Part shown: positions 332-19,345 of the stretch, one piece after another
How the letters are laid out: the number at the start of each line of letters is the position of its first letter
Position numbering within the stretch: position 1 is the first letter of the stretch
Origin: Baffinella frigidus
Lineage: Eukaryota; Cryptophyceae; Cryptomonadales; Baffinellaceae
DNA: 21,614 nucleotides
NCBI GenBank assembly: GCA_026770585.1
Contig: MU646396.1
Coordinates: forward strand, 149,090 to 170,703
Reading direction: 5' to 3'
Position numbers and translations under genes: made by a program
Notes under the pieces: generated by a model
The model's database searches: none
The model's input: only the letters and a program-made list of their open reading frames with translations
What the model was told of the DNA's origin: nothing

Positions 332-792
332 GTGTTTTCGGTGGAAGTGGAAGGGATCAAATTCGTCGCGAGCCGCGCGACCGACGCGTGGGAGCAGGCT
401 TCCCGCCGGAGACTCCGCGAGCGCAAGAAACTTAAGGTTTGTGCCCCCCCGCATCAACATCAGGGTGACGTGCCAGATTAGGATCAGGGTTTGGTGCCCC
501 CTACCCCCCCCTCACCCCACGCCAATGAGGGGCAGTGCGAAAATGTGGAAGAGATTTTTTCAACAGACCGCACCGACGCCAACGACCGACCCTTCAATAA
601 TCACGTCAAATTTTACATATCCCTTTTGGTGGATTCAACAATTCACTTAAACAAACACGTCAAATGTAAACCATGTTCCCTTTTCTAGGTGCACGCGAAC
701 GAGGGGTAGTGTGATAACGTAGCGCAAGTGTTCATGCCTGACCGCACCGACGCGTCTTTCTCTCTCACACACACTCTCTCTCACACACTGCC

Positions 793-847
<55 letters not shown>

Positions 848-3800
848 CGCTCGGTCGCTCTCTTTCTCTCTCTCTCGTTCCTGGTCTCGCCCTCGCTCTC
901 GCTCACTCTATCTCGCTCTCGCTCTCTCAGGTGCACGCGAACGAGGGGCAGTGTGACAACGTGGCAGAGGTGTTCATGGCATGTTCCTACGCGATCGATG
1001 GCGACTACATGTTCGGCGTCACCTGCACCCCCATCGCCAAGATGCTCGAGGTCCGAACCCCCCCCCGTCCGATCTATCTATTTCGGCGAAGCGATGTGGT
1101 CAGCTCGGGCGCTTTGAAGCGGAAGAGTTGTACCGCGGACCCGGAGTGTCAACTTGAGAATAGATGGTCGACAAGGGCTACACGTGGGGCGTGATTTGCA
1201 TCGCCATCGTCAAGATGCTCGAGGTCCCGCTGTGCGGGGGTTGCCTGCCGAACCACAGTTGCAAACCAGAGCAGCAGACACAATGATTGAGTACGCGTGT
1301 CGAGGCCACGCGTGGCCAGGTCACACGTGAAAATACCCCGACCTTTCGCTCTAAACAAAAATCGTAGTACACACTCCACATCGATGCGCGGCGGGCAATT
1401 GACGTGTCGCGTGTTCCTGATTCAAATCTGTGGGGGAGATCCGGAGAATCAACTGGCGGACGGTGTGATGTGACCTGATTTGGCACAGGCGGTCCAGACG
1501 GGCGAAGGTTGTACCCCACTCGCAGAACGGCTATTTGACCAAAAGGGCTGTTTGATTTCATTTGATTTGATTGGATGGAGCAGGCGGTAAAAGAGGCAAC
1601 GTCGCTGTTCAACTACCATCCGCGATTCGACCTCTGGGGCAAGAACTACGTCCGCGAGAACCCCTCCGGGTCTGCAACAACCCCCCCTCACTTGAAATTT
1701 GACCAGCCCCCATACCGCTCTCTGCGTTTCCTGTATACGTCAACCACACTGGTCGCGTACGTATATGTAGTGATGTGATCGAAGTTCCCCATCCTACCCT
1801 CCTGCCTGCAACCCCCCCACCCTCCCTCCACGGAGTTTGCCTGTCGATCGGAGTTCCCCGGACGAACCCCCACCCCCCCCTCGCGCCTTCCCCCGATTCG
1901 CAGCTGTCGTGAAAAGCTGTGAAGTCCACACAACGGGTGTAGAGAGAATTTCGTGAGTAACCGGAATTCCCCGGACGGATTCCCCCCCCCTCCCACCTCC
2001 GCCCGATTCGCAACGTTGTGAAAAGTTGTTAAGGTATGGGTAAGGGTCCGGACCGCCATGATTAGGTTGTCGCCTGAATTACTTATGGGTACGGAACACA
2101 CCCCATGATGGAACACGCGCGGTCCTGCTGAGACACAGCCTCGGGCGGAGATGCACACACGGCGGCCGTGTTGGTAGTACCAACGGTCTCTCATCACGGG
2201 GCGCACCTGGTGCCCCTCCGGATTGCCGACCGTAGGTTCCTATGGATTATCCACTTCTGGGTTATTCACAAAATTGCTGTGTAGTCGACTGTGAAGGTAT
2301 GAGTAGCGAAGACGCGTGATGATGAAACGGACGGCAGGTGCGCACGAGGAGAGGAGTTCAAGCGACGCAAGAAGATGTCTACCGCCAAGGTCCAGCGCAA
2401 TGCCGAGGAGGGCGATCCCGCCGAGGTCTCACTAACCCCGAACCCCGAAACCCGAAACCCGAAACCCGAAACCCGAAACCCGAACCCCGAAACACGGAAC
2501 ACGAAACCCGAAACCCGAAACCACAACAAAATACACGCTAAACCCTGACCCCCCCCCAGGAGTCATACCGATCGAAGAGCCAGAAAGAGCGAGAGAGCGC
2601 CAAAAGGGGTTGTTGAAGTAAAGTGGTTGGCCTTGCCCCCGGGAGTCATACCTATCGAAAAGCCAGAACGAGCGAGAGAGCGCTCCTTTTGTTTGTTTTC
2701 GTGGCCTACAGATGCGCAGACTGCTCTCGAACTAGTTGGTGTTTGGTGTTTGGTGCAGGAGTCGTACCTTTCCAAGGTGCAAAAAGAGCGGGAGCGCGCC
2801 TAAAGTGGTTGTTGTAAGCAAAGTGGTTGATCCCTCCCCCAGGAGTCGTACCGATCTCGGGGACAGAAGGAGCGGGAGACCACGGCGTCGATGCGCTCCA
2901 TGTACCAATCGCTCATTGCCGAGCCGAGGGCCCAGGTCCGCCGTAAGCCCTGGCCCCTTTCAGAATCCTGATGGTCGTCGAGAAACCGCCCCGAGACTCC
3001 CCAACCCACCAATCGCTCATGGCCCAGCCAAGGGCTCAGGTGCGCGACCCAGCGCATCACCAAGCCATTTCGTGAATAACCCATACTTTGGCAATCCGGC
3101 AATCGGACACAGGCTCCATGTACCAATCGCTCATCGCGGAGCCGATGGCTCAGGTCCAACATTAATAACCTTATTTTTCCTCGTTTTGATTATGAGTGTG
3201 CATACCGGACGTGACTCCGCGAACGAGTGTCCCTAACGGACGCGACGGTCCTTTGCAGGTGCGGCGATCGGCGATCCACAACCTCGGGTTGTTCGCCACC
3301 CAGGATATTGTCAAGCACGACATGGTGCGTCCTTGCTCCCCCGTCTCCCACTCCGTGTACAGTCTTCGTCACCTCTTCCTACTTCTACAAATCAACAGGG
3401 GAAGTCTCCAATTCTTGGACACGACACTAAAATTATGTGTAGGTTACTTTTTGACGAATTTTGGGTACGTCCTGTGGCAGAAATTACCTTTTGAGGGAGA
3501 AATGGCTCCAAAGTTGGCGACACAATCATCTCGCCTACGTTTTGAGACTTCCCCTGTGGCTTTGCAGAAGTACTAAAAGCAGGAAGCAGGCCTGCTGAAA
3601 CCCTCTCCCTGCTCCCTTCTCCCACACCGTGGAGAGGGAAACGTGGGTTTATTACGGACCAAAACCAACACGGGCATGTATTGCAGGTGATCGAGTACGT
3701 GGGAGAGCTAGTCCGGCACATCGTGGGCGACATTCGCGACGACTACGCTCTCGAGAAGGGCAAGAGCACCTACATGTTCCGCATCGATGACGACTATATC

Positions 3801-4230
3801 GTCGACTCCATGTTCAAGGTGCCTCCCTCCGCTTGGCAAGAGAGCTTTTTACTACCAATACGGCCGCCAACCCCCCCCCCCCAGGAATCGTCACGGGGGA
3901 AACATTGTGTCCAATGGTTGTATCCATCCGAAAAACCGCGTTGACTTACAAGACTCACTTTCCCACCATGGCGGCCATGTTTGTTTTCGATGCATACCAA
4001 ACGCACATTCCTCCCCCCAGGGCAACGCGGGGCGATACATCAACCACTGCTGCGATCCAAACTGCTACTGCCGGGTGGTGACGGTCGACGGCATCAAGCA
4101 CATCGTGCTCTTCGCCTGGCGGGACGTCAAGGCAAACGAGGAGATAACCTACGACTACAAGCTCCCGATTGAGGACGTCAAGATCATCTGCCACTGCGGC
4201 GCTGCCACGTGCCGCGGTTACCTCAACTAG
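332..4230 (+). CDS. Trithorax/MLL/SET1-type histone H3K4 methyltransferase, C-terminal part (FYRC + SET + post-SET), 5' partial
   Basis: Exons 332-436, 931-1050, 1584-1669, 2338-2425, 2843-2935, 3259-3324, 3687-3818 and 4021-4230 join in frame (phases 0,0,2,0,0,0,0) into 299 residues ending at TAG. Residues 1-75 resemble a FYRC domain (FSVEVEGIKF, then TDAW, then GDYMFGVTCTPIAKMLE). Residues 165-282 are a SET domain: LGLFAT at 173-178, EYVGE at 189-193, RYINHCCDPNC at 235-245, and ITYDY ending at 276. Post-SET cysteines are at 287, 289 and 294 (CHC, then ATCRGYLN at the C terminus). The family methylates histone H3 Lys4 in COMPASS-like nuclear complexes. The short FYRC-to-SET spacing is MLL-like. 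The usual Ser of the NHSC motif is Cys. FYRN, PHD fingers and the start codon would lie left of the window. SET and post-SET are certain. Exons 2 and 3 rest on phase and splice sites. Confidence 0.88.
518..559 (+). pseudogene. Decayed copy 1 of the start of exon 931-1050 (FYRC exon)
   Basis: The 42 bases translate as HANEGQCENVEEIF against HANEGQCDNVAEVF in the real exon, so differences are mostly conservative. The AG acceptor is lost. It lies inside the intron before the exon and shares further downstream sequence (GACCGCACCGACGC) with the next copy, so the two arose by tandem duplication. Confidence 0.75.
689..739 (+). pseudogene. Decayed copy 2 of the start of exon 931-1050, with a stop codon
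   Basis: A good acceptor (TTTTCTAG) precedes GTGCACGCGAACGAGGGG, identical to the real exon start. The next codon is TAG instead of CAG, and the copy continues recognisably to TTCATG. If spliced in, it would terminate translation after six residues. Confidence 0.8.
752..929 (+). repeat. CT/TC microsatellite forming an expanded polypyrimidine tract
   Basis: A nearly pure CTCTCT run with short ACACAC, CGGTCGCT and CTCGCT interruptions ends directly in the acceptor CTCTCTCAG at 922-930. It acts as the polypyrimidine tract of the intron before the second FYRC exon. Confidence 0.9.
1163..1223 (+). pseudogene. Decayed copy of the end of exon 931-1050, including its donor
   Basis: The copy aligns with the last about 55 bases of the exon, from GATGG to AAGATGCTCGAG, and is again followed by GTCC. 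Changes near the middle alter several codons. It gives this exon a duplicated 3' edge 173 bases downstream of the original donor. Confidence 0.75.
2205..2290 (-). repeat. Dispersed repeat family H, copy 1
   Basis: On the minus strand it reads GACTACACAGCAATTTTGTG, then AATAACCC, then GGATAATCCATAGGAACCTA. This matches copies at 10673-10800 and 17757-17862 on the plus strand and a shortened copy at 3063-3106. It lies in the intron between exons 1584-1669 and 2338-2425. Confidence 0.7.
2432..2540 (+). repeat. Telomere-variant array (CCCGAAA)n in an intron
   Basis: About a dozen units of CCCGAAA with CCCCGAA and CACGAAA/CACGGAA variants start 7 bases after the exon ending at 2425. The C-rich strand is the sense strand of the SET gene. 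Confidence 0.85.
2560..2842 (+). pseudogene. Three tandem decayed copies of the start of exon 2843-2935
   Basis: Copies start at 2560, 2643 and 2759. Each begins GAGTC(A/G)TACC, as the true exon does at 2843, and each translates to ESY(R/L)SK.Q.ERE-like peptides. Copies 1 and 3 keep an AG acceptor. In copy 2 the acceptor is GG. Copies 1 and 3 run into stops soon after the shared part. The units also share the GTGGTTG intron segment, with periods of about 83, 116 and 84 bases. Confidence 0.85.
3007..3153 (+). pseudogene. Two decayed copies of the end of exon 2843-2935
   Basis: Segments 3007-3039 and 3114-3153 repeat the last 33 to 40 bases of the exon (ACCAATCGCTCAT, then GAGCCNAGGGCTCAG), each again followed by GT. 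The second keeps the peptide SMYQSLIAEP. Spacing of the three CAG|GT edges is 104 and 114 bases. A shortened family H repeat sits between the two copies. Confidence 0.8.
3063..3106 (+). repeat. Dispersed repeat family H, internally deleted copy 2
   Basis: It reads GCCATTTCGTGAATAACCCA then TACTTTGGCAATCCGGCAAT. It lacks the central GGATAATCCATAGGA segment seen in the other copies. Confidence 0.6.
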
Positions 4231-4546
4231 CCCCGGAAGGAGGAAAGCGGTGGCCGGCAGCACAGCGAGGGACAAGGTGGTTCCGCAGCGGACCCCCCTC
4301 CCGCATCATGCCCACATGTCTCGAGCCCGCGCGTCCCGCACGGGTCCGAGAGCCACGTGCATGCGGCCACTCTTCGCAATACAAATAATACCACAACGTG
4401 CGCTGCCGCTGCACCGTTGAAACCGCGGACGATTGAAACCACAGACCAGCCCAGAGTCGCGAGCATTGAGAATACAATTTCATTCGGCACACTGCTCGGT
4501 GCGAGAGACACTGTACGTGTAAGTTCTAGCTCCGCGCGTGCGCAGT
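4231..4546. other. Intergenic region between convergent gene ends
   Basis: This is the 3' flank of both the SET gene (stop 4228-4230) and the minus-strand membrane-protein gene (stop 4547-4549). I see no convincing exon, RNA gene or repeat and no clear AATAAA signal. Confidence 0.5.
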
Positions 4547-7500
4547 CTAGCAGAAGGGAGCGCACGCAGAGTCGGCGTCCTTCCTGGAGCTGCGTGCATC
4601 CTTCTCGCCCCTGCCAACCAACGCAGCCCCCGCAGTCAGCTACCTTGATGCAGTATAAGGCAGCCAGGTTCGGTACAAGGCTGTCTGTGATACTGGAACA
4701 TAGGGGTGTGTACCAAGTTACTTTCCCCGTAGGTGCTACGGTATGGTGGCCGGCTAGAACCACTCAACCAGCCCAGCGTTACTGGGTCGGCGGCAAAGCT
4801 TTCCGCCGCACGAACAGCGTGCAGCGGCGCGAGTGTGCGTGTTTGGAGCTCCGGTGCTCAGCAAAACAATGCCATGAGTGCAAGAGCGGGGCGCTGACAT
4901 GTCCTCCTGGCGCTGGCCCTTGACGGCCTTGGCGCGGCGGGCCGCATCATCAGCCGCGTTCAGCTGGGTGTCCGAGACGTATCCCCGATGCAGTTTCTTG
5001 TCAACGGCCAACCGCTCCATGATCTCTTTCAGCGGCATGATCTGTCGGGGGGCCCCGAAAATCGTCAGCAGGAGGAGCCTGCCTCTGACTGAGGAAAACT
5101 GGGCTCGCCAAAAAAAAAAGGATCAGGAAATCTAGTACAAAATTACGAGTAAAATACATTTATGGCGAGCCCAGTTTTAGCAAGGCAGAGCTAGAGGTGC
5201 ATTCCTGCATGTCGACAACTACTGGCGCTGCGCCAAATTGTGAAAACACACCGCTCAAAGGACCCTACATAACGCCACTATCTGGGAGCCTGGGACCATG
5301 CTCGCTGATAGTCCAGTGTGTAAGTTCGGTAGAAAGTAAGTACTCAGGTAGCAAGTCACTACTCAACGAGCAAGCAACTTTTTAGGTAGCAAGTAACTAC
5401 TCAGCTACCGAGTAGTGCATAGCTAGCAAGCAACCACTAAGGTAACACAGCAAGTATCTGGTAAGGTAGCCAAGCAACGCAAGAACATTGGTGTATTCCA
5501 CTCAGGAATAAAATAGAAACTTCGGTAGCAAATGAAATAGCCACTTCGGTAGCAAATGACTACTTCGGTAGCAAGTAACAACTCAGAACTACTTAGCAAG
5601 TGTGTATGTTGGGTAGCAAGTGAAGCAAGGACCTTGGCAGACGCATCCGCGTACAGCTCCGTGGTCTGCAGGAGCTTGGTCCGCTTCCCCACAGCCACGG
5701 CCTTCTCAGCCATCGCCTTGTTCGCCGCCGGCCAGTGCACCCACGGCACCATCTGATGTACCGTTTAGGGTTCAGGGTTCAGGGTGTAGGGTGTAGGGTG
5801 TAGGGTGTAGGGTGTAGGGTGTATGGTGTAGGGTGTAGGATCGCCTTGTTCGCCGCCGGCCAGTGCACCCAGGCACCATCTGGAGTAGGGTTTAGGGTTC
5901 AGGGTTTAGGGAGTAGGGTGTCCTTGCTCGCCGCTGGCCAGTGCAACCACGGCAGCGCCGTCCAGGAACCTACGCCACATCACGACGGCCGAAACCCCTA
6001 AACCCTAAACCATACACCCTGAATAACAGCTCTCAGATGGACGTGTCATGCCTTTACAGTCCCATCCTCGCGGATGTTGGGGCAAGGATGGATGCCTACA
6101 GCTCTTAGCTCTGCCTGAGCAACATTGGGCTCGCCATAAATGTATTTTGAGTTGCGATTGTGTACTAGATGTCCTGCTCTCAATGTATTGTATGGCGAGC
6201 CCAGTTTGACTGAGGCAGAGCTTGAGCTCCGTGCACGGGGAGCACCGCCCGTTGGGTGCGCGTGGCCGTGGTCCGCCCCGGGGAGGTGCTGCTGCTCGTG
6301 TGCATGTGGGCCACGGGACAGCTAGCTGCGGAACAACATTCAAGCGAGCAGATGCAAGCCGCGCTGAGAGCTGGGAGTGTTCATGGAGGCTCTCAAGGAT
6401 ATTGCCAAGCAAGAAGGTCATTAGGATCAAGTATCACGATGCAGCCTTTGGTCGGTGAGGGGGCTGCCGAAAAGGAGGGAGAAAATGAGTGTGGACGTGG
6501 TGTGCAAGACGTGGGACCGAAAGCTAAGAGGCCCTAGCGCTGACCCAGTCAATTTGGGCACACCACTTTGGTGAGCCCGGTCTCTTTTTCGCTCCAAAGT
6601 TGACGGATCCGTACCGCATACCCCGCATGTCAACAGGAGAAAAATCGGTGAACCCGAGTGAGGCAGAGGTGAGAGGCCTACCGAGGAAGTAGACATCTCG
6701 CGCTGCTCCTCGTGGCGGCGCATGCGCGCGACCTTTGCCTCCGTCTCCCCCCGGCGCTGCTCCTCAACCTTCCGGTCCGAGACGGGCATCGTGAAGTGCG
6801 ACGCCTCCTTCAGCTCCTTCTCCTGCGAGGAAGAAGAAAAGGGTGAGCGAGCTCGTCCTTGATGGGTGAGGGAGATAGCCTCGTTGCGCCCTTGCTCCCG
6901 AATATTGAGAGGAGAGGGGTGCACCGATAACAGCATCATTCAACCCTCTTCCAAGAATTTGAGATGATGGAAAGGATGCGAGACAGGCGGCGCGCAGGTA
7001 ACAACGCGTCCAGCTAAAGCTATGGCAGCCAACGGCCGCGACAGAGTGTAACGCAGATCAGGTCAGGTGGTTGGGGGTTGGTGGTTTGGTTGGTACAGGT
7101 GGGGACCAGGACTCCCGGGAGGAGAGGTCCGCAGGTGAGGCAGGGTGGGGAAGTGCACCTGGCGCGCCATGCCCTTAAAGAGCGACTGAAGCCCCCCCCG
7201 GTCATCAGTGTCCTTCGCCAACGCCGCCAGACGCGGGTCCACCGCAACGATCGCTGACTTCGCCGCACCCTGCACAGAACAACAACGTCAGAGAAAACCT
7301 CGCCGCCACCCCACGAGTTCGATGGCAGGCCCAATCTCACGTGACCCCAGCCCTGGGCGCCGGCGCATGCGCGATGAGGCTGCCATTGCGTTGCCACCTG
7401 CGCGAACGATCTCCCTCCCTTTCCAGGTGCTAAGAAAAAAGCATGGAAAGAGGAGCACCAGAGCCACGGAGGAGGACGGCTGAAGCGCCACTGCGATGAC

Positions 7501-7599
7501 GGCCGCGCACAGGAGCAGCCCTGCGACGGCGCCCACCGCAGCGCGCCCAGCCGTGCCCCGCTGTTGCGTCACCACCGCTTCGAAACTTCCCAGCGCCAT
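4547..7599 (-). CDS. Unrecognised single-pass membrane protein with a charged, coiled-coil-like body (six exons)
   Basis: Proposed exons on the minus strand are 7599 to about 7468, 7269-7159, 6822-6682, 5752-5633, 5041-4899 and 4610-4547. They join in phase to about 236 residues. The ATG at 7599 has a good context (AATCAATGGCG). Residues 21-39 form one hydrophobic helix (AVGAVAGLLLCAAVIAVAL). Exon 3 is Lys/Glu/Arg rich (KVEEQRRGETEAKVARMRR), exon 4 holds MVPWVHWPAANKAMAEKA, and exon 5 holds AADDAARRAKAVKGQRQED. The end of exon 1 is uncertain (TCC|GTGGCT or CTG|GTGCTC, both phase 0). Exons 5 and 6 share a split Met codon, and exon 6 is the weakest. I do not recognise a family. Introns hold MITE-like elements and telomere-like repeats. 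It converges with the SET gene and starts 236 bases from the divergent small-protein gene. Confidence 0.6.
5081..5192 (-). mobile_element. MITE-like inverted-repeat element, family B copy 1, in the intron between exons 4 and 5
   Basis: Ends are inverted copies: CCTCTG and AACTGGGCTCGCC on the left, GGCGAGCCCAGTTTTAG and AAGGCAGAG on the right, around an A/T-rich core. The length is about 110 bases and there is no ORF. A second copy with the same termini is at 6108-6222. This is a non-autonomous DNA-transposon-like element or introner candidate. Confidence 0.8.
5329..5632. repeat. Degenerate minisatellite of GGTAGCAAGTAACTACT-type units
   Basis: Recurring GGTAGCAAGT, AACTACTCA and CTTCGGTAGCAAATG blocks fill the minus-strand intron right up to the donor of exon 5752-5633. 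The unit is about 15 to 20 bases and poorly conserved. Confidence 0.7.
5764..5965 (-). pseudogene. Two decayed copies of the 5' edge of exon 5752-5633, separated by telomere-like repeats
   Basis: Copies at about 5839-5883 and 5922-5960 match the exon start (plus-strand GCCTTGTTCGCCGCCGGCCA). The first keeps the CAG|ATGGTG acceptor edge but has lost one base (CCGTGGG to CCTGGG), shifting frame. TTTAGGG-type arrays fill 5764-5838 (mostly GTGTAGG units) and 5884-5921. In the sense of the gene these read CCCTAAA. Confidence 0.8.
6108..6222 (-). mobile_element. MITE-like element, family B copy 2, in the intron between exons 3 and 4
   Basis: It begins AGCTCTGCCTGAGCAACATT and GGGCTCGCCATA and ends TATGGCGAGCCCAGTTTGAC then TGAGGCAGAGCT, forming a long imperfect hairpin around an A/T-rich core with AATGTATT in both arms. 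It shares termini with copy 1 at 5081-5192. Confidence 0.85.
6546..6668 (-). mobile_element. MITE-like element, family F copy 1, beside the donor of exon 3
   Basis: Read on the minus strand: CCTCTGCCTCACTCGGGTTC, then the core GTTGACATGCGGGGTATGCG, GTACGGATCCGTCAACTTTG, GAGCGAAAAAGAGACCGGGC. The core carries GTTGA and GTCAAC as inverted segments. Related cores are at 12766-12846, 16964-17030 and 18190-18314. It starts about 14 bases inside the intron that follows exon 6822-6682. Confidence 0.65.
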
Positions 7600-7835
7600 T
7601 GATTTCTCACCTCCCAAAATACACGATGCTTAAGTCAACTGGTCAGGCGGCAGTTGACTTATGTAATTCTTTTTTAACAAGCAAAATCTGGTACTTTCTG
7701 GGACGGATCGGTTGATCTTCCAGAGGTCACCATCCGCCTTCCCTGAACGATCCGGATAGGCGCAGACGGACGGCGAGTGCTGCTCCACCGGGAGAGTGGC
7801 GCGGCTTCGCAGCCTTCTAATCGCGGCTCGGCGGG
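7600..7835. promoter_or_regulatory. Short divergent intergenic region (candidate bidirectional promoter)
   Basis: Only 236 bases separate the two start codons, at 7599 (minus) and 7836 (plus). The middle (7655-7690) is A/T-rich (ATGTAATTCTTTTTTAACAA) in an otherwise G/C-rich region. No TATA box or named motif can be assigned. Confidence 0.45.
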
Positions 7836-8237
7836 ATGGGCACCGCCGACTCAACACTGAAGGGCGACGGGAAGGCTTCTCCCGCAAAGTCCAGGATGTC
7901 TGTCAAGCGGAAGGGAGGGGTTGGGGGAGGCGGTGGGGATGACGACGATGGCGGCAGCTCGGCGCCCAAGGAGAAGAAGCAAAAGAAGAAGACGAAGAAG
8001 AAGGTTGAGCCGGAGAAGGACGATGCGCAGCCTTCGATTTCTGGCTTCCTCTCCTCCAGCTCAGGAGGGGCCGCTGGCCGATCGAGCAGCCAAAAACGTC
8101 CCTCGAAGGAAGGGAACCGCGGCAAGGGGGGCGCGGTGCCCCCAGGGGGTTCCTCCCGGGGGGGGAAGGTGGTTTCTGATACCGAGAGCGATGAGGAAGA
8201 GAGAGAAGAGTCTGTGATAATAGTGATAGATGACTGA
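7836..8237 (+). CDS. Small nuclear-type protein with PIP-box-like and C-terminal SUMO-interaction-like motifs (133 aa, intronless)
   Basis: The start is CGGGATGGGC. A Lys/Gly-rich N terminus is followed by an acidic patch (DDDD, 35-38), a strong basic NLS-like run at 45-56 (PKEKKQKKKTKKK region), QPSISGFL at 65-72, a Ser/Gly/Lys-rich linker, then SDTESDEEEREE and the final residues SVIIVIDD (126-133). QPSISGFL fits a PCNA-interacting PIP box (Q, I, F at the key spacings) except for Leu in the last aromatic position. The hydrophobic IIVI followed by Asp-Asp and preceded by an acidic Ser-rich stretch fits a SIM. This motif pair could link the protein to SUMO-modified PCNA, which is inference only. 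The low-complexity composition means homologs would be hard to detect. The antisense frame is also open. Confidence 0.65.
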   Translation: MGTADSTLKGDGKASPAKSRMSVKRKGGVGGGGGDDDDGGSSAPKEKKQKKKTKKKVEPEKDDAQPSISGFLSSSSGGAAGRSSSQKRPSKEGNRGKGGAVPPGGSSRGGKVVSDTESDEEEREESVIIVIDD

Positions 8238-8243
8238 CCTTCA

Positions 8244-8265
8244 GAGAGGCCTACCGAGGAAGTAG
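8244..8265 (-). repeat. 22-base copy of an exon/donor junction from the neighbouring gene
   Basis: GAGAGGCCTACCGAGGAAGT followed by AG is identical to 6671-6692, which spans the exon 3 donor (TTCCTCG|GTAGGC on the minus strand) of the membrane-protein gene. Here it sits just after the stop codon of the 133-aa protein. Confidence 0.85.
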
Positions 8266-8363
8266 TTTTACATCTATAGATGCAAATTAAGAGCACCAAG
8301 TTGCTTGGGCAGCGGTCTCAGGTTCTGTCGTGCTTGTAAGGACTAACCAGAGCCTAGAGCAGA

Positions 8364-8549: not shown

Positions 8550-8583
8550 TACAGCGCTACAGCGTGACAGCGTTGCAGGAATA

Positions 8584-10035: not shown

Positions 10036-10672
10036 TGGCCCAGTAGTGGTGGTAGTGATAGTGACAGTGCGTGCGAAGGTGTGAAAGTCAAGCGCGAAGG
10101 CAACGTGTGGAGGTTGGAGGGTTGGCGGCGGGGGCAACCTGGAGGTAGGGGTCTGAGCCGAAGCAGCACCACGCCGCGTCCCCACACCTGGTCAGGCTTC
10201 AGGCTTCAGGGTTGAGAGGGTCGCCGCGTCTCCACACCTGCATGGGTTCCGAAGAGGGCCACACTGCTGCAGGGGTTGCTCGAAACTAAGGACGCGCGCC
10301 GCATGATGGTCCCACGGTTGGGCTAGTCTTAGGAGCATAGGACCACCCTAGGGGCGGTGCGTGTCCCTAATGGCGAGTAACCCCTGAATGTTGTTCCCGC
10401 GCACTTGGTCACCGGCGCGTTGGCATTCAGGGTAACGCCCCGAATTCAGGGTAGTTACGCCTACGGTTTTCACTACGGTAGGCTGTTGCGCTCCTACGAG
10501 AACCAAGGGTCTAGTGCCTAGGGGCCCGACGGCCTACTGTAAACTTACCTGTCCTGAGTTTAGCTCGGTGCCCTATGAACATGCGTGTAGCCAGCTTGCA
10601 ACAGAGCGCGATGCTGCGCTGCTTGCTGCCGCAGCGCACGTGGGCAATGTTTCCTGGGCGTATCTACCACAG
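10036..10672. other. Gene-free stretch with short palindromes and decayed element fragments
   Basis: It contains a repeated CGCCGCGTCYCCACACCTG (10171 and 10222 regions), the palindrome-like CGCGCACTTGGTCACCGGCG, and CTACGGTAGG fragments as in families C, D and H. No exon can be supported. Confidence 0.4.
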
Positions 10673-10800
10673 AGCGGACTCAAGGGATTTCGTGGATAAG
10701 ATAACCCATACAGGGATAATCCATAGGACCCTACGGTAGACAATCCGCAGGGGCGTAGGGTTGTTCCTACGGAAATCCTAACCGATTCTTGGTCAGAATC
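10673..10800 (+). repeat. Dispersed repeat family H, copy 3
   Basis: GAGCGGACTCAAGGGATTTC, AATCCATAGGACCCTACGGT and CCTAACCGATTCTTGG align along their length with 17757-17862. A family A repeat follows within 30 bases. Confidence 0.75.
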
Positions 10801-10905: not shown

Positions 10906-11355
10906 GACGGATTGCAAGCGATCTACCCCCTCCAGGAGTCTGGCGTGGTGGGTGGCGAGGGTGCGCGAGGAACCTGCAGCACCTCCCGCTGCGGCGCACG
11001 CCCACCACCTTGCGACACCGCGTGCACCGGTGGTAGGCGTCTTTCTGCGCGTCCAAGCACAGCGGCGCGAGACAGCATCCGAGCCAGCACCCGACGAGGC
11101 ACAGCAGCCCAACGCCTGTGTGGGGAAATAGGATTCACTGCCTGCCGGGCCAAGGCGCAGGTGCCGACAGGTGCAGCCACCTCGCATCAATACAGCCCCC
11201 ACACAAACAGCAAAGGTCTTTTGCTTTTGCCCGTCAGGTATTTATGAGGGCTGAAAGGAAAGGGTTTGACTGAGGCGAGGTCTGCACTGCAGGGTGGAGG
11301 CCCGTGGCAACAGCGCGGTGGGGTGGGTGAGACCCAATCCAAGAATGGGTGTGGG
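10906..11355. other. Gene-free stretch, G/C-rich, long but unconvincing ORFs
   Basis: Several frames are open because of base composition. None shows consistent codon character, domains or splice-bounded structure, and the longest minus-strand frame runs through repeat families A and H. Confidence 0.4.
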
Positions 11356-11632
11356 CTATCCCTTATGTGGCGAAAAAGGTACGTAATCATTTTTTTTAGC
11401 AGGAATCAGGTGTAGGGATTTGAATTTAGCGGAGGACGGTTTTCCGGGTCTCATAAATCAGGAATTTCTCGGGTCGTTGAGCACCAATTACTCAATTTGT
11501 TCAGCTTAGCGAGCCTGACAAGCTGGTGTTTTTTTCATAATTTTCCATTAAGACGCGGCCCAATTAAAAAATGCCAAAGTCGACATTTTGACGAGGTGCC
11601 ACCTGTGAGTGGCGCCGCCACATAAGGGATAG
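11356..11632. mobile_element. MITE-like family D copy 3 (long form, about 277 bp)
   Basis: It begins CTATCCCTTATGTGGCG and ends CGCCACATAAGGGATAG, a 17-base perfect terminal inverted repeat. The interior is A/T-richer than in copies 1 and 2 and unrelated by eye. A telomere-like array begins immediately after it. Confidence 0.85.
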
Positions 11633-11929
11633 GGCATGGGGTATGGGGTATAGGGTATAGGGTTTGGAGTTGAGGGTTTACGGTGTAGGGTTCAGGGTTT
11701 AGGGTTTAGGGTTGAGGGTTCAGGGTTTAGGGTGCAGGGTGTAAGGTTTCGGGTTTAGGGATTAGGGTTGAGGGTTGAGGGTTGAGGGTTGAGGGTTCAG
11801 GGTTGAGGGTTGAGGCCATAGGGTATAGGGTTCAGGGTTCAGGGTTCAGGGTTCAGGGTTCATGGTTCATGGTTCATGGTTCAGGTTCTAGGGTTTAGGG
11901 TTTAGGGTTTAGGGTTCGGGGTTTAGGGT

Positions 11930-11961
<32 letters not shown>

Positions 11962-12036
11962 GGTTTAGTGTCTACGGTTTAGGGTCTAGGGTTCAGAGTT
12001 TAGGGTTTATGGTTTAGGGTTTAGGGTTTAGGGTGT
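11633..12036. repeat. Large degenerate TTTAGGG-type telomere-like array
   Basis: About 400 bases of TTTAGGG, TTCAGGG, TTGAGGG, TATAGGG and TTCATGG heptamers, locally homogenised in blocks of 4 to 6 identical variants. It lies directly beside the right end of family D copy 3. Confidence 0.95.
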
Positions 12037-12231
12037 GGGCCCCTATCTCTCTGGCGCGTGCTGAAATTTCATCGGTGCATGCAAAATTCGCCAGACAACG
12101 CCAGATTACAAGTGACAATTCCCACAAAAATTGACTCTCCGGATTTATCCCACAAATGTGTATCACAAACACGCCAAAAGTGAACAGCCCACCGATTTAT
12201 AACAATCTTTCAGAACCTGGTGGGTACCAGT

Positions 12232-12266
12232 AACGCGACGGTTCCAGTAGAGCGAACCGTCGCGTT
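12232..12266. other. Perfect 13-bp hairpin in otherwise blank DNA
   Basis: AACGCGACGGTTC and GAACCGTCGCGTT flank a 9-base loop and are followed by CTATTTTTTTC. The surrounding 12037-12377 shows no gene. It may be a structured RNA end or an element fragment. Confidence 0.6.
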
Positions 12267-12377
12267 CTATTTTTTTCACTGTTGGCCTGGCGTGGCGCCT
12301 GGCACCCCCCGGACAGATTCCGTGACGAGCGTTTCAGGTGCGGCGCTGGACTTTCTCGGGCAGGAGTGAACACAACA

Positions 12378-12448
12378 TAAACCCTAAACCCTAAACCCTA
12401 AACACTAAATCCTCAACCCTAAACCCTAAACCCCAAACCCTAAACCAG
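12378..12448. repeat. CCCTAAA telomere-like array
   Basis: About ten fairly well preserved CCCTAAA units. Its orientation is opposite to the array at 11633-12036, so the two face each other across about 340 bases. Confidence 0.9.
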
Positions 12449-12556
12449 GAGGGACGAGACCAGCCCAGACGAAGGGAGTGTGTTGCAGCGAGTTTGCCGA
12501 GTAGTCCTCCCCCGCTTTGCAGTACGGGCACCTGCTCGCTCCACACCTCTCACCCG

Positions 12557-12721
12557 GTGCATCATGCACAAGCGTACGTTCAAGGAGCACTTATGTGGAC
12601 GCGACTCAGTACAAAAAATGCAATGGTGGGCTTGAAAAAGGTTTTGAAGTTGTGATTGTAAACTTGTGTACCGAGTCGCGTCCAAATGAGTCCTCCTCCA
12701 ATGTACGCTTTTCGTAATATG
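12557..12721. mobile_element. MITE-like element, family G (imperfect inverted repeat)
   Basis: GCATCATGCACAAGCGTACG on the left pairs with GTACGCTTTTCGTAATATGC on the right. GTGGACGCGACTCAGTACA pairs with TGTACCGAGTCGCGTCC. The loop is about 50 bases. Single copy in this window. Confidence 0.75.
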
Positions 12722-12765
12722 CATGCGTTGACAGACAGCGCAGCTTCGATACAAGCATGCAGTCT

Positions 12766-12846
12766 AGCTCTGTATCAGTCGATATAGACTCTTTCCCGCT
12801 CCAATGTTGACTGATTTGTACCGTACACCCAGCATGTCAGTGACGC
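12766..12846 (-). mobile_element. MITE-like family F, copy 2
   Basis: On the minus strand: TGACATGCTGGGTGTACGGT, ACAAATCAGTCAACATTGGA, GCGGGAAAGAGTC, ending in CAGAGCT. It matches the family F core at 6546-6668 and 18190-18314. Confidence 0.65.
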
Positions 12847-13678
12847 AGGAAGTCTGACCCAGTGCGCGAGGGGGGGAGGGGGAGGGGGAGGGGGAGGCAC
12901 TTGAACAGCCGGGGGTCAGCGCCCCACGCTTCTCTGCTCAGCCGAACCACCTCTGCTGCTGACTCCCGATCCAGCTTCACAAAGTCCCCCGCCTGCTCCA
13001 GGGAGTACGGGGTCAGAGACGCGAGGGTTGGTGCGCAGCGTCTGTGTTCTCGCTGGGCGGCAGGACGTGTGGCACCGGGCGGAGCCGTGCAAGCAGCTGG
13101 ATCGACGCGCACCGTCCCGTTCGGAGTCGCAGGCATCTCGACGTGCACCTCGTGGCTACCTGGCGAGCGCTCCGCCATCTCCACACCGTCGTCCTCATCG
13201 ATCTCCAGCGAGATCTCCCCCCATCCTGCCACCGCACCCATGCCGCGGCACACGATGAGCGCGTGGACCGCACCTCCACTCTAAAGTGCCGGCCTCCGCT
13301 CGTCTGCCCTCCTGACGGAGTCCTCAGAGCACCGCTGCTTCATCTCTCACGCTTCGGCGTCCACCCTCTCTCCCCTCACGTTTTCTCCGGGAGGTCACGC
13401 ACCGAAGCTGCAAGCGTGGGCGGCGGGTAATCGGCCAGGGTTCCGTGCAAGGGCAGAACAGGGCGGGGCAGACCGTCAATGTCCCTCTCGCCAACAAACA
13501 TCGGCGTTGGCGTCCCGGACCTCGCTGAGCCATCCCCGCCACCCACAGTGCCGACAGCCGCCCACTGCCACAGGCCGCTGCCCCCCCCTGGGCGCTTGGC
13601 ACCTGCTAGTGCCCGCGCGCTCGCGCCATCAACCAGCGCTCCCACGTCGATGTCATCGGGCTCTCCTGATCCTGCCAT
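12837..13678 (-). CDS. Probable two-exon gene of unknown function, head-to-head with the DUF3119 gene
   Basis: Proposed exons on the minus strand are 13678-13403 (92 codons, ATG in GAGGATGGCAGG, donor TCG|GTGCGT) and 13280-12837 (acceptor CACTTTAG). They join in phase 0 to about 239 residues. Exon 1 has DDIDVGALVDGASARALAG, a Gly-rich stretch and FVGERDIDGLPRPVLPLHG. Exon 2 has AVHALIVCRGMGAVAGWGEI, an acidic LEIDEDDGVEMAE, and near the end PYSLEQAGDFVKLDRES, AAEVVRLSREAWGADPRLF. I do not recognise a family and see no signal peptide. The last about 20 residues are Leu-Pro repeats encoded by a CCCTCC run and end inside a family F element, so the true 3' end may be a donor at TTCAA|GTGCCT near 12900. 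Confidence 0.45.
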
Positions 13679-13908
13679 CCTCTCCCTCCCTCGACCTCAG
13701 TTTCAGAAGCCTCGATCCCCCTCCCCCTCTGCCCTCTCCCTTCCACCACCCTGGGGAGCTGAGTCCAAAGCGAATTCGACTTTTCGGTTAGGCCGCCCAA
13801 TTCAATTTCATTAGGAAGCGTAAGTAAAATTAATTGGTCCATAGTAAATTTTCCTATCAATTTACTATGCCCGGAAAGTGGACACCCACAACTTCGATTC
13901 GACCGAGG
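13679..13908. promoter_or_regulatory. Divergent intergenic region (candidate bidirectional promoter)
   Basis: About 230 bases separate the proposed start codons at 13678 (minus) and 13909 (plus), nearly the same spacing as the 7599/7836 pair. Its plus-side half (13795-13865) is A/T-rich and holds a small inverted repeat, CATAGTAAATTTTCC and CAATTTACTATG. Confidence 0.4.
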
Positions 13909-16900
13909 ATGGCGAATCTCCTTCTGTTGGCCCTCTCGGACGCGACCATCGCGCCGGCGACCGCCTTCCTCGCCCCCGCGTCCATCTCCATCCGCCATGC
14001 CGCCGGGTATCTCCACCCCCGCGCCCCCACTTGTGGCCACCACACAGCAACAGCCATTATCCTGACTGATGTGACCCTGGGCGGGCGCTGACGGTTTTGT
14101 TGGCAGGTCCGCGGCGGGCGTTTCCGCGATGGGGCTCTGGCGCGCCCCGGTGGCTTCCGTGGCTAAGCGGAGCCGCGCGGCGGCGTCGCTTGCCCCGAGG
14201 ATGGTGGCGGGCAGCGAGGTACGGCTGCTCCTGGCGTCCCTTTAGAACACTTGCTTTTCTGGCATCACAAGCAGCGTCCTCCTTGATGGGCAAGTGCAAC
14301 CGGAGCGTAGATCCCAACGCAAGCGCGGTCGGTGGTTCGTTGCTGATCCTCGGAGAGAAGCATCTGTGCGATGATCTCTCCCCCCAAAAATGTAGATCAC
14401 ACGGCTTTCACGAAGTCCCCGATCATACCTCGCTCAAGGCTGGTTCGGTCGCCACTGGGACACTGCCCAGCGCTCTCTGAGTGTCAAGCCGGTCTTGACA
14501 ACATTGCTAGCGTGCACCGACCAGATCTGCTGTTATGAAGCGAGTAGGGATGAGGTCGCCATCCCGGGTCGAAAGAACTCGGCTTTGTTCGCAGAGGACA
14601 CGAAGCGTGGGTAGGACCTTGCCCGGTCGCTTTGTTTGCAGATCACACCAAAACCGTGGCTGGGAGGGCACCGCCAACCATCCGAAGTGAACCAGATTTG
14701 GGTTGGAGTCGAGTAATTCCCCACCCCAGGACTAACCCCTGAGGGTTCAGTCAAGGGGATTTTTTCTAAAAATACCCCTTGGTTTAGTCGGTGAAATTTA
14801 CTACAGTTGGCATGACCCGATCTGGTATTGTAGAGTTCGGGTTGTCTTGGATTCGGAGTCGGGTTGGCAAATTCGAGAAAATGAAATTGTATGCTATCGC
14901 AAGCATGAGATTGATGACAAGATAGCATCCCCCGCCCATAAGATGACACAAAACGGCGCATTTACGTTGGATTTCCGCCCGACCCGACCATGAAAAAATT
15001 CAAGCCAATCCGAATTATACAATAAACTTCGGGTGGGTGGTGGGTGGCAGACGTCCGAGTCCTAGCTCTGTCTCAGTAAAAATCGGGCTGACCATTTCCT
15101 GAGATTTGACGGGGAAAGGTGACTTTCATTTCTCGCAGGTGATCATCCAGGAGGACTTCCGCCTCGCGGCTGTCTTCCTCACCCTCGGTGCCCCACCCCC
15201 CCTGCACCCTAAACCATCAACACTGAACACTAAAAGCTAATCACTCAATACTGAACACGGAACACGGAACATGGAACACGGAACCCGGATTCCAGATCCC
15301 GGATCCCGGAACCCGGAACCCAGAACCCGGAACCCTGGACCCGGAACAGGAACCCCAACACTAAACACTCAACCCTAAACCCTAAATCCTAAACCCTTTA
15401 CCCTCAACACTAAACACTAAACACTTAACCCTAAACACTAAACCCTAAACCCTCAGCCCAATACCCTGAACCCTCAACCCTCAACCCTAAACCCTAAACC
15501 TAACCCTGGTCGTTGCGTGGTGTGGGTGAATGAGGTTCGCGCACGGTGCAGTTGGCGTCGTCGGTGGGCACGGCTGGACCAGTTGTCAGGAGCGTTTCTG
15601 CTCACGGGAGCGTTGTTCACGGTGTTGTGTGCGGTGGTTGGTGCTGGCCAGGGGCGCGTCACTCGCTAGAATCGGGGCGTCGTTTCAGTGCAGGATCGTG
15701 GCTGGCGGCGCGGTGGCAGGTGAACAGGGCTGGGGCCGGTGGCTCTCTGCACCGACACCGCACATGGTGCGGGTTCAGGAGAGGCGCTCACGGTGCGGTG
15801 CGGTGGGCAGGGCTGGGGCTTCCTAGAAAATAAGTACGAATACGATTAAGACGATACGGAAGATAAGGAAGACACTGGGTGGCGCCCAAAGCAAATCATA
15901 TGTGGCGTAATGTGGGGAAAGGGGAAATGCTGACGGTGCGGTTGTCTTGGCGGGCAGGGCTGGGGCTGGTGGCACTCAAGGCGCCCCCTGGGCTCCCCGT
16001 GGCCATCTTTGGCGCCTTCCTCCTCTTCCAGGTACCTCTTCTGTCTGCCCTCCCAGACAGCTCAAATCCCTCAATCTGTTGAGGCCAAGGGCGTCAGCTT
16101 CAGACTTCCTTGGCCTAATTTGTACCAGAAAAATAGAAAGACAGAAGTGATGTGAGCTTTTTGTGAGGGCTGGTGGTTCCTGCATGGCCCTGCAGGGGTC
16201 ACTCGCGAAGAAGGTCGAGACCTTTTACAGCAGGGGCCTGGCTTCCCGCGCTGTCATCTGTTCCCCCTAGAACGTGGCACAAGCCACCAACCTAGCACCG
16301 CGCCGCTCCTCGCGTCTCGCACTCTCCTAACTCACCCTCCTGATCGCATGCACTCCTGCGCTCCGAATCCTCCACATCCTACGTGAAGTTGTAGCTCTGC
16401 CAGGCGGGGGAGGGTTGCTCAATGCTGGGTGGTTGCGATGGAACCATAAACCCTAAACCCTGAACAAAAAAACACAACATACAATCCCTCATCCATCAAC
16501 CGTCATCCTTCGACCTAATCCCTAACCCCTAACTCCTACACCCAAACCCTTCACCCCCTCCCCCCCAGTTTATGATTTAGGTTTTTTTAGGGCCTAAACC
16601 CTGAATCCTGCGACAGACGACGAAGATCAGGTTTGCTCTGGACGACACCGCCTTCGAGCTCAAGCGCGCGTCCACGGTTGCCAAACCCCACACCCTCAAC
16701 CCTAAACACTAAACCCCTAAACCCAGAACCTTGAACCCTAAACCCTAAATCCTAAATCCTAAAACCTAAAACCTAAAACCTAAAACCCGAACCCTAAACC
16801 TTAAACACCAAACACCAAATCCTTACCACTAACCCCTACACCCTAAACACTAACCCCGAAACCCGAAACCCGAAACCCGAAACCCTACACCAGCCGCAAC

Positions 16901-18994
16901 GGGCGGGGGATGGTCCTCCTCTTCGCTCGGCCTCACACGGGTTGACTGCCAGACTGTTTTCAGGTTGACATGCTGCGTGATGGGTGCGAACCCGTCAACT
17001 TTGGCGCGGGAAAGAGCCCGGTCTCACCGAATAGGCGAACCCGAAACAACCGCAGTCCGAGGAGCGGATCAACTTTGGAGAGAAGCTTGTGGTTGGGGGC
17101 GCGCCACCTAAGAATAGTCAGCCAACCTGCCCGAGGCTGCGCTAGAAGAACTCGAATCCCGAAGACACCCGTCGAACCCCGACGAACTCGAACCCCAAAG
17201 ACAAACCCGAAACCCCTAAATGCTAACCCCAGACCCGAAATGCGAAAACAGCCGCAGTCGGAGGAGCTGATCAACTCGGGAGAGAACATCGTTGTTGGGG
17301 GTGCCAACCGCTGGGACTTCTCTACGTTCGTTAACTACGACTTCTTCCCCAGCAAGGTGCATTCCGCATTTCTGTTCGAGCCACACGGTGGACTAGGAGG
17401 TTTTCATTATAAAAGGAGTGTCGTCCATTTTCACTTATTTTAACCTTTTTCTGGTAGAACACTGAGCATGTGAACCCCAGATTGTTGGGGTCTTAACAGA
17501 TCTGCAGTCCACCGAGTGGCAAGCTGAATGATTTTCGGTTGTGTTGAAGTTGTTTAAGCCTTGACCAGTTCAATAGAGCTGTTCCGGTAGGGCATGGTCG
17601 TTCTCGATTTGCTGAATTGCCGACTTGGAGATTGCGATTTATACCACGAAACTCGAAACGGTGCGTTTAAAAAACTGTTTACCACCTTGTAAAGTCTTTT
17701 TTTAGTGGAACGATTCCACCATTCTCACCTAAGACTTCTTCCCCAACAATCCCACACAGCGGACTACGAAGCGATTTCGTAAATAACCCGTACAGGAATA
17801 ATCGATGGGACCCTTCGGTAGGCCGTCCGTAGGGACGTGCCTTCGGATGGCCTAACCGATTCTCGAAGGCTGAGGCTGTGTGTGGCAGGATGCTGAAGCG
17901 TGAGGGGGTGTGGTTGGCAGGATCTTCCCATCCTGGTGTACTTCAAGGAGACCCAGACCCCGGAGGCGGTCCGTCCCCTTCAAGCCTGGTTTTGGGGGTT
18001 TGGGGTTCCCATGCCTGCCCTCGCACTTGACTCCGCTGCCTCAATGCTTCGCAAAGTATCTCCACACACCGGCAACCACGGAGCAACTCCGCTGAAAAGC
18101 GTTGTGGTGAGCAGAAGTGGGGCGACGGTCCGGGCAAGTTCGACGACAAGAAGGGCGGCCAGGTCCTGCCTCTCCCTCTCGGATGTCTACCTCTGCCTGC
18201 GTCAATCTGGGCTCCGCGAAATGAGGAGGCCGGAAGTTGATTTGTCTGGTGTGCGGTACAAATTCGTCAACTGGTGGCGTGAAAATAGTCAGCCAACCCA
18301 ACTCAAGCAGAGCCAGTCCCTCTCGGACTTCCACCATATGTCCCGCGTGTTTGAACTGGCAGAAACTGCAAACCCTAAACCCTAAACCCTAAACCCTGAA
18401 CCCTAAACTCTTAACCTCAAACCCTAAACACTAAACACTTCACCCTAAACCCTAAACCCTCACCCCTAACCCCTTCAACCCTCAACCCTGAACCCTAAAC
18501 CCTAAACCATAAACCCTAAACCCTGAACCATAAACCCTAAACCCTAAACCCTAAACCCAAAACCCAAAACCCTAAACCCTGAACCCTAAACCCTAAACCC
18601 TAAACCCCAAACCCTGAATCATAAACCCTAAACCCTGAACCCCAAACCCTGAACCCTAAACCCGGAACCCGGAACTCTGAACCCTGAACCCCAAACCCTC
18701 AACCCTAAAACCTAAAACCTAAAACCTAAACCCTTAAGCATAAACCATGAACCCTAAACCCTAAACCCTAAAGCCTAAACCCCAAAACCCTAAACCCTAA
18801 AACCCCAACCCCAAACCCCACACACCCAATCCCAAACCAGACCATCTTTTCCCCGGCGATCCCAAACCCCCTAAACGCTACACCCGAAACCCCGAACGCA
18901 GATCCACTTTTTCCCGGCGATCTGCAACGTGGAGCAGCTCAACGATCTCTTCATCGCCAAGGGCGTGCCTTCCGAGCGCTACAACCCCAAGTAG
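13909..18994 (+). CDS. Plastid-targeted DUF3119-family membrane protein (nine exons, complete)
   Basis: Exons 13909-14006, 14107-14218, 15139-15187, 15958-16031, 16617-16676, 17252-17356, 17921-17968, 18115-18162 and 18902-18994 join in frame to 228 residues ending in TAG. Residues 1-19 are signal-peptide-like (MANLLLLALS). Then PATAFLAP puts a Phe at the predicted cleavage point, as in ochrophyte-type plastid presequences, and an Ala/Arg/Ser-rich transit segment runs to about residue 68. The mature part starts VIIQEDFRLAAVFL, with two hydrophobic segments (about 78-93 and 99-111), then TTKIRFALDDTAFEL, NRWDFSTFVNYDFFPSK, DLPILVYFKETQTPE, KWGDGPGKFDD and IHFFPAICNVEQLNDLF. These match what I know of the cyanobacterial/plastid DUF3119 family, whose function is uncharacterised, and a thylakoid or plastid-envelope location is likely. 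Exons 48-112 bases long sit among introns of up to 920 bases filled with repeats. Confidence 0.85.
15203..15508 (+). repeat. CCCTAAA-type array with GGAACAC/CCCGGAAC variants (intron 3 of the DUF3119 gene)
   Basis: It starts about 15 bases after the donor at 15188. The middle third is (CC)CGGAAC and CACGGAA units, the outer parts CCCTAAA and ACTAAAC units. C-rich on the sense strand. Confidence 0.9.
15722..15825 (+). pseudogene. Two short copies of the 5' edge of exon 15958-16031
   Basis: Segments near 15726-15750 (CAGGGCTGGGGCCGGTGGC) and 15800-15822 (GTGGGCAGGGCTGGGGCTTC) repeat the real acceptor edge GCGGGCAG|GGCTGGGGCTGG. The preceding GGTGCGGT is also repeated. Shorter and less certain than the SET-gene copies. 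Confidence 0.55.
16444..16890 (+). repeat. CCCTAAA-type arrays on both sides of exon 16617-16676
   Basis: Interrupted CCCTAAA/CCCTAAC units are at 16444-16610, and a denser array with CCTAAAA and CCCGAAA blocks at 16683-16890. The 60-base exon is a small island of unique sequence between them, with the second array beginning 7 bases after its donor. Confidence 0.9.
16964..17030 (+). mobile_element. MITE-like family F, copy 3
   Basis: GTTGACATGCTGCGTGATGG, then AACCCGTCAACTTTGGCGCG and GGAAAGAGCCCGGTCTCACC, as in the core at 6546-6668. It lies directly upstream of the exon copy at 17046-17106. Confidence 0.65.
17046..17106 (+). pseudogene. Decayed copy of the start of exon 17252-17356
   Basis: CAACCGCAGTCCGAGGAGCG and GATCAACTTTGGAGAGAAG then GTGGTTGGGGGCGC align with the real exon start (CAGCCGCAGTCGGAGGAGCT) for about 60 bases. 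The reading frame is kept (PQSEERINFGEKLVVGG against PQSEELINSGENIVVGG). Confidence 0.8.
17757..17862 (+). repeat. Dispersed repeat family H, copy 4
   Basis: CAGCGGACTACGAAGCGATT, GATGGGACCCTTCGGTAGGC and GGCCTAACCGATTCTCG align with 10673-10800. It lies in the intron before exon 17921-17968. Confidence 0.75.
18190..18314 (+). mobile_element. MITE-like family F, copy 4, just after the donor of exon 18115-18162
   Basis: It begins CTCTGCCTGCGTCAATCTGG and ends AAGCAGAG, with the family core GTTGATTTGTCTGGTGTGCG, GTACAAATTCGTCAACTGGT. Its left end is under 30 bases from the donor, like copy 1 in the membrane-protein gene. Its termini resemble family B. Confidence 0.7.
18368..18840 (+). repeat. 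Large CCCTAAA-type telomere-like array (last intron of the DUF3119 gene)
   Basis: About 470 bases of CCCTAAA units with CCCTGAA, CCATAAA, CCCCAAA and CCTAAAA variants, sense strand C-rich. It begins about 50 bases after family F copy 4 and occupies most of the intron. Confidence 0.95.
18836..18867 (+). pseudogene. Partial copy of the 5' edge of the last DUF3119 exon
   Basis: CCAGACCATCTTTTCCCCGG then CGATC repeats the exon start at 18897 (GCAGATCCACTTTTTCCCGG then CGATC) 60 bases upstream. Confidence 0.6.
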
Positions 18995-19009
18995 GCTGCT
19001 TCTCTCTCA

Positions 19010-19345
19010 TTACGCACCCTCTCGCATTAGGCACCCCCCGAGAGACCTGGTCTCTCTTACTAGGCACCCGAGAGAGTAGGCGAGGGAGAGTAGGCGTGGA
19101 CGCTGTTCTGCAACACCCGAGACACTGTCATCGCATGGGCACAAGTGATGTCTGGAGAGTGAGCGATTGAGGAACAACGATCTCTTCAGCGCCAAGGACG
19201 TGCCGTCCGAGCGTTACAACCCCAAGTAGGCTTCCTCTCTTACGTAAGAGAGAACGAGACCTGGTTTGCTACCATCATGCCCGTCCGATCGCTACATCCC
19301 CAAAAATGTGGGGGGGTAGCCCAAATATGTGGGGGGGTAGCCTCA
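19010..19345. repeat. Short tandem and palindromic repeats downstream of the DUF3119 gene
   Basis: Includes the hairpin GAGAGACCTGGTCTCTC (19039-19055), recurring TTAGGCACCC/CTAGGCACCC and GAGAGTAGGCG units, and two copies of AATGTGGGGGGGTAGCC near 19302-19342. Exon copies are interspersed. Confidence 0.6.
19173..19306 (+). pseudogene. Two decayed copies of the 3' end of the last DUF3119 exon, including the stop codon
   Basis: Bases 19173-19232 repeat the final 54 coding bases and the TAG (NDLFSAKDVPSERYNPK against NDLFIAKGVPSERYNPK), plus the GGCT following. A shorter piece at 19279-19304 (CCCGTCCGATCGCTACATCC) matches only the last codons. Both lie downstream of the true stop, so they are outside the mRNA coding part. 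Confidence 0.85.

Follow-up and report, generated by a model that had tools for sequence, protein, structure and literature searches.

Here, we observe that the ends of exons are copied, often repeatedly and in direct orientation, into the introns and flanks beside them. The finding starts from a stretch of 21,614 nucleotides (nt) of Baffinella frigidus (contig MU646396.1, 149,090-170,703), called the window in the following, by which the whole stretch is meant. The original prediction for this DNA held that the ends of at least six exons in three genes are reiterated nearby as decayed copies, and suspected an ongoing process behind them. Such duplication of exon ends is real, and it extends to other genes of the genome: 34 of 89 exons sampled have local copies on the same strand, 85 copies in total, against a single one in the reverse-complement control. 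We moderately favour recurrent direct tandem duplication of short DNA in and around genes as the explanation.

Three spliced gene models with 22 exons were built in the window; every intron is of the GT-AG type, and all models read in frame. Gene 1, on the plus strand and cut off at its 5' end, encodes an FYRC and a SET domain, and gene 3, also on the plus strand, a DUF3119 domain. These two models are supported by the domains found, while a Pfam search with gene 2, on the minus strand, gave no match. Each exon was compared with its own flanks of 1 kb on either side by Smith-Waterman alignment and evaluated against 200 dinucleotide shuffles, with low complexity, heptamer arrays and microsatellites masked beforehand. 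The six exons named in the prediction have local end copies, with z values of 19.3 (931-1050), 21.8 (2843-2935), 22.3 (minus 5752-5633), 5.4 (15958-16031), 21.7 (17252-17356) and 33.2 (18902-18994) and alignment scores of 30-90. Among the other 16 exons, two reached a nominal p < 0.05 (0.015 and 0.0498, scores 26 and 21), and no exon out of 22 did so against its reverse-complemented flanks. The weakest of the six is 15958-16031, where the exon part of the copy measures 20 nt. The window copies are 75-98% identical to their source exons, in good agreement with the term "decayed", and 11 of 13 touch one exon end (6.7 expected under random placement, p = 0.011).

In the FYRC-SET gene, exon 2 (931-1050) is copied at both ends. 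Its 5' end recurs at 518-553 (83% identity) and, together with the AG, at 687-736 (88%), where the copy carries an in-frame TAG; its 3' end recurs with the GT at 1178-1227 (82%), 12 nt downstream of a piece (1146-1165) resembling a miniature inverted-repeat transposable element (MITE). Exon 5 of the same gene (2843-2935) has the richest set. By self-comparison, its 5' end is found at 2558-2600 (c1), at 2642-2683 (c2, 83 nt past c1) and at 2756-2799 (c3, 84 nt upstream of the exon), and its 3' end, each time with the GT, at 3008-3045 (d2, 87%) and 3113-3157 (d3, 91%). Here the units are nested: 2558-2679, comprising c1, spacer and c2, matches 2757-2879, comprising c3, spacer and exon, so that a duplication has itself been duplicated within 2558-2879. 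Exon 4 of gene 2 (minus, 5752-5633) has two copies of its 5' end on the minus strand, one at 5840-5881 (97.7%, with a one-base deletion), whose similarity extends about 40 nt into a telomere-like intron flank, and one at 5922-5954 (91%). The spacer between this exon and its nearest copy consists mostly of telomere-like heptamers.

In the DUF3119 gene (all features on the plus strand), exon 4 (15958-16031) has a short copy of its 5' end with the AG at 15725-15747 (91%), and the intron end plus the first 10 exon bases recur at 15786-15820 (79%). The 5' end of exon 6 (17252-17356) is copied at 17044-17102 (83%), where the AG is lost and a MITE-like end follows 9 nt downstream; a weak copy of its 3' end lies at 17729-17749 (90% over 21 nt, E = 0.39). 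The final exon (18902-18994), which includes the stop codon, has a copy of its 3' end at 19175-19240 (91%) that comprises the stop codon and 11 nt further. When the window was divided into 100-nt tiles, local direct copies at z >= 6 were found for 23 of 124 exon tiles, 25 of 217 intron-only tiles and 42 of 316 intergenic tiles; judged by eye, some of the duplicated non-exon tiles belong to pairs of elements or to arrays of short units. Local direct duplication therefore also affects DNA other than exon ends.

For the wider sample, the assembly (382 Mb, 1364 contigs) was searched with protein kinase and kinesin profiles, which gave 108 and 45 matches, respectively. The resulting 89 exons, 22 from the window, 37 from kinase and 30 from kinesin matches, represent these gene sets. 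Kinase exons were taken from 17 of 30 located loci; the remaining 13 were dropped by hand before counting, 12 of them for open frames of more than 450 codons (likely intronless), in addition to locus L017. Ten regions of about 8 kb contributed further kinase exons (22 matches, minus the stop-holding L032 and L041), and the kinesin exons are the 30 of 45 matches that have loci. Exons outside the window are profile matches. Their ends were estimated with a small splice-site model, for which 19 introns served as training data; estimates scoring below 3 were replaced by the end of the profile match, which leaves 59 of 89 5' ends and 59 of 89 3' ends called. A copy had to lie within 1.2 kb of the exon at E <= 1e-3. 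Copies are nested and hence not independent, and L063 and L070 are apparently one pair viewed from both sides. A stricter set of 79 exons was obtained by removing ten seeds with a stop in the profile match.

Exons with copies occur in all three sources (window 6 of 22, kinase 15 of 37, kinesin 13 of 30), and the stricter set retains 28 of 79 exons with 68 copies. Among exons shorter than 180 nt, 30 of 55 have copies, or 25 of 49 without the stop-holding seeds. A single exon has up to 8 copies; the 85 copies are 72-98% identical to their exons, lie 85-770 nt away and contain 15-88 nt of exon. Direct pairs of nearby similar segments outnumber inverted ones by 250 to 55 in loci L001-L041 and the window, a count in which loci partly overlap and which includes repeats in the long open frames of L002, L008 and L010.

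The position of the copies follows a simple rule. Of 45 copies upstream of an exon, 44 derive from its 5' half, and all 40 downstream copies derive from the 3' half (stricter set: 37 of 38 and 30 of 30); random pasting of exon pieces into introns would give agreement in about half of the cases. Tandem duplication is the best explanation of this side rule, and it is probably seen through a filter of selection. The blocks also tend to reach the exon end: 58 of 85 come within 3 nt of one end, where random placement predicts 43.3, and the tendency persists in the stricter set (49 of 68, 36.5 expected, p = 0.0015) and where both exon ends are called (26 of 37, 19.2 expected, p = 0.011).

The comparison of exon ends with mid-exon segments proposed in the prediction is meaningful only for long exons. 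Over all exons, copies cover 22-23% of the bases up to 60 nt from an end, 10.6% at 61-80 nt, 1.4% at 81-120 nt and none of 5607 past 120 nt, these far bases coming from long exons only. Among the long exons (34 with 180 nt or more), copies cover 279 of the 5440 bases that lie up to 80 nt from an end and none beyond 120 nt; this 5% coverage near the ends comes from just 4 of the 34 exons. Coverage in the 55 shorter exons stays level at 33-37% up to 80 nt, because blocks from the two ends meet in the middle of the exon.

Plain tandem units, filled by the similarity over their whole length, are visible at two loci. At L068, 1537-1870 matches 1789-2123 at an offset of 252 (335 nt alike, 88%), starting inside the exon; these are two consecutive units and part of a third, and on the 5' side another 125 nt are alike at an offset of 148. 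L071, whose exon ends are uncalled, has 507 nt alike at an offset of 369 (93.5%). Of 41 copies, 16 extend 7-60 nt into the intron.

The copies themselves look like decaying sequence. AG is retained in 18 of 23 copies and GT in 14 of 18, about as expected from the decay of an intact start. Over the 85 pairs, differences between copy and exon fall on codon positions 1, 2 and 3 in 114, 93 and 234 cases, and comprise 213 synonymous changes, 220 non-synonymous changes and 8 new stops. A count of copy-specific changes at the three positions (36, 30 and 79) had first suggested coding constraint and thus functional copies. This idea was rejected, because an older copy keeps states that have since changed in the exon, so that the count cannot discriminate.

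According to the explanation by tandem duplication, short stretches in and around genes would duplicate repeatedly in direct orientation. If one breakpoint falls into an exon and the other into the adjoining intron, the exon would stay intact, and the intron would be left with an orphan end that usually includes its splice site; the side rule would therefore follow from the location of the breakpoints. The orphan end may be tolerated as it is without the partner splice site needed for exon definition, whereas duplications that comprise a whole exon or lie inside one would change the protein and presumably be lost by selection. Repeated rounds, with other DNA such as telomere-like heptamers and MITE pieces entering at some joints, would lengthen the introns, and the orphan ends would decay. 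As to the repair process behind such events, fill-in of staggered breaks is our guess.

Several observations weigh against this explanation, and the first two make our leaning towards it slightly weaker. The prediction had pointed out that whole-exon duplications are not seen, and indeed none occurs among the 85 copies of the window and the wider sample, though random placement of such short blocks gives only 0.3; the absence says little, because most of the blocks seen fall short of the length of their exons. With units of 150-370 nt, a whole exon would be included in 4-65% of cases, so the lack is informative only for units of at least 150 nt, and the offsets suggest that longer units exist. 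Blocks that touch an exon end are only modestly in excess, and 27 of all 85 blocks were classed as internal. Similarity often fills only part of the supposed unit (94 nt at an offset of 229 in L038, 134 nt at an offset of 211 in L036), and 25 of 41 copies have no clear likeness past the splice site, some of them at 91-97% identity (L038, L066, L036); the L038 copy, at 93.6%, has 6 nt of intron in common. At L028, a 39-nt piece of a kinase exon without splice site (2184-2222) is 100% identical to 2635-2673, and the flanks are unrelated. In the window, a perfect 22-nt match to the donor edge of exon minus 6822-6682 is found at 8244-8265, 1.6 kb from the exon and on the wrong side for the side rule. 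Changes at position 3 make up 53% of the differences, compared with the 43-47% expected if a dead copy is paired with a living exon (base rates taken from 14 non-coding duplicate pairs), a modest excess that we cannot explain fully. Finally, 60-mers from exon ends have local copies more often than those from nearby introns (35 of 116 versus 31 of 254, Fisher p = 6e-5), and the intron count falls to 16 of 205 (p = 3e-7) when pieces with exon copies are set aside, a step that biases the comparison. The inverted control gave 0 of 116 and 10 of 254, respectively.

The last of these points leads to a process aimed at exon ends, in which the splice junction serves as the anchor of the duplicated block, for instance through transcription- or splicing-linked breaks, and introns grow from their splice sites. 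In a simulation, the slower decay of exon pairs made them 1.47-fold more visible (242 versus 165 of 400). This advantage is only about 1.5-fold, so an excess at exon ends is left over, which keeps another mechanism open. The copies whose likeness stops at the splice site point the same way, as does a set of 29 hand-picked pairs, in which 9 of the 11 pairs with at least 93% identity are, by eye, kinase exon pieces. On the other side stand the 16 copies that run on into the intron, the tandem units of L068 with one breakpoint well inside the intron, and the duplications confined to introns or intergenic DNA, besides the bias of the filtered comparison. Strict anchoring at the splice site is ruled out by the same 16 copies. 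A process directed at exon ends is possible and is unnecessary for the side rule; all in all, we hold it to be rather unlikely. For the likeness missing past the splice site, one answer is that other DNA lies at the joint; the other, a process favouring splice junctions, we regard as doubtful. It is likewise a tentative idea, which we rate well below plain tandem duplication, that introns grow outward from their splice sites by recurrent duplication favouring exon ends. If this were true, each event would re-create a splice site beside the exon and strand the old exon end, and introns would be layered records of former splice-site positions.

Contigs of divergent haplotypes or paralogues, alike only in their exons, might also have been joined in the assembly so that exon ends appear twice. 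Such an artefact would likewise lead to the side rule, to copies that end sharply at splice sites and to extra third-position changes. It is, however, an improbable source of the copies: no N lies between copy and exon in any of the 85 cases, the number of copies per exon and the spread of their identities do not correspond to a single haplotype distance, and half of the changes are non-synonymous, stops included. A second copy of the gene was not found in the assembly for the two loci searched back. The window as query matched itself alone, and the 55 matches of L066 are the locus itself, one 37 nt upstream on the same contig and 53 that fall in its C/A-rich intron stretches. Even less credit can be given to the dense MITE-like family (55 units in about 290 kb of sequence) as the driver of the copying via excision and faulty gap repair. 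Four units are found no more than 12 nt from an exon copy, where 1.46 are expected (p = 0.046), but these are only 4 of 55 at weak significance, and many spacers have no such element.

The prediction further proposed that the process makes or enlarges introns, and referred to tandem duplication of AGGT-containing DNA. Enlargement follows from the anatomy of the copies. In intron 4 of the FYRC-SET gene (417 nt), about 285 nt lie between the start of the first copy and the exon. Introns with copies have a median length of 548 nt (n = 8) versus 362 nt for those without (n = 11), a difference that is not significant (p = 0.40). The intron-making part found no support. If the copies were relics of exonic duplications that created introns, as in the AGGT model of Rogers, likeness at the intron ends is predicted; over 19 introns it was seen neither between intron start and next exon start (p = 0.63) nor between exon end and intron end (p = 0.28), and the window copies sit in the middle of introns. 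Donors read AG/GT in 11 of the 19 introns and GT follows the acceptor in 6 of 19, as this model would have it, yet we consider it very improbable as the origin of the copies.

Duplications crossing exon-intron boundaries are known as spliced, retained duplicates; the copies described here, in contrast, look dead. In a potato gene, tandem duplication of the 3' side of an intron and the 5' side of the next exon gave a new intron, and an 83-bp duplication within an intron is mentioned as well (PMC4974935). The single type of event is thus already known, and the recurrence of stranded exon ends is a variant of it. The potato case is one proven event with a new spliced intron, whereas the copied ends here are modelled as unspliced, occur at many exons and include 3' ends. 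The model of Rogers and Hellsten likewise involves tandem duplication of exonic DNA beside splice-like signals (PMC4974935), but the intron-end likeness it predicts is absent here. Fill-in by CST/Pol alpha-primase at breaks with 3' overhangs can give small direct tandem duplications with machinery shared with telomeres, as shown at Cas9-induced breaks (PMC8355091); the offsets observed here are often longer, and other DNA is often found at the joints. Introners also shape introns through inserted elements, in families with target duplications of 3-9 bp and in part with inverted repeat ends (PMC9860276). Here, in contrast, the copies are pieces of the adjacent exon of 15-88 nt and the source is not a dispersed element. 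Among the matches listed in a search of titles and abstract starts of the open-licence literature, none describes recurrent stranding of exon ends in introns.

Duplicated exon-plus-intron DNA is present at about half of the short exons tested. One copy of each pair is pinned by the protein, so each event can be placed and roughly aged, and a single genome could reveal the rate of duplication, the size of the units and any filtering by selection. The length of introns is usually attributed to transposons. In genomes of this kind, searches for protein domains may match dead exon pieces. The kinesin matches L063 and L070 on contig C506, and likewise the match L068 on C112, belong to pairs of matches that lie a few hundred bases from each other and overlap in their profile ranges; one match of each pair holds stop codons, and these are probably exon copies picked up as domain matches.

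Degenerate telomere-like heptamer arrays, mostly intronic, are found in the window at 2437-2522, 5766-5919, 15253-15500, 16683-16891, 18370-18818 and 21471-21614. Most of them are C-rich, and within 400 nt of the 89 exons 335 sense-strand heptamers are C-rich and 118 G-rich; that heptamers are always C-rich on the sense strand is ruled out by several reversed loci. The MITE-like family has a palindromic core and is represented at 6567-6676, 12789-12839 and 16918-17031 as well as by the piece at 1146-1165, sometimes beside exon copies. A short element that ends in inverted repeats occurs twice in introns of gene 2 (5083-5190 and 6109-6220); it gave 4 pattern matches where 0 are expected. Another dispersed repeat occurs in both orientations at 2212-2293, 10667-10789 and 17752-17863.

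Concerning the genes, the closest solved relatives of the FYRC-SET protein are the KMT2/MLL H3K4 methyltransferases. The DUF3119 protein begins with what, in our reading of its motif, resembles a plastid-targeting leader; a scan for its relatives in viral contigs gave 24 pattern matches, with none confirmed. Two open frames may belong to additional genes. One, with 138 codons and a high content of lysine, glutamate and serine, adjoins gene 2 at 7821-8237, and the other, at 20315-20593, has an internal ATG followed by a signal-peptide-like leader and is a possible exon 1.

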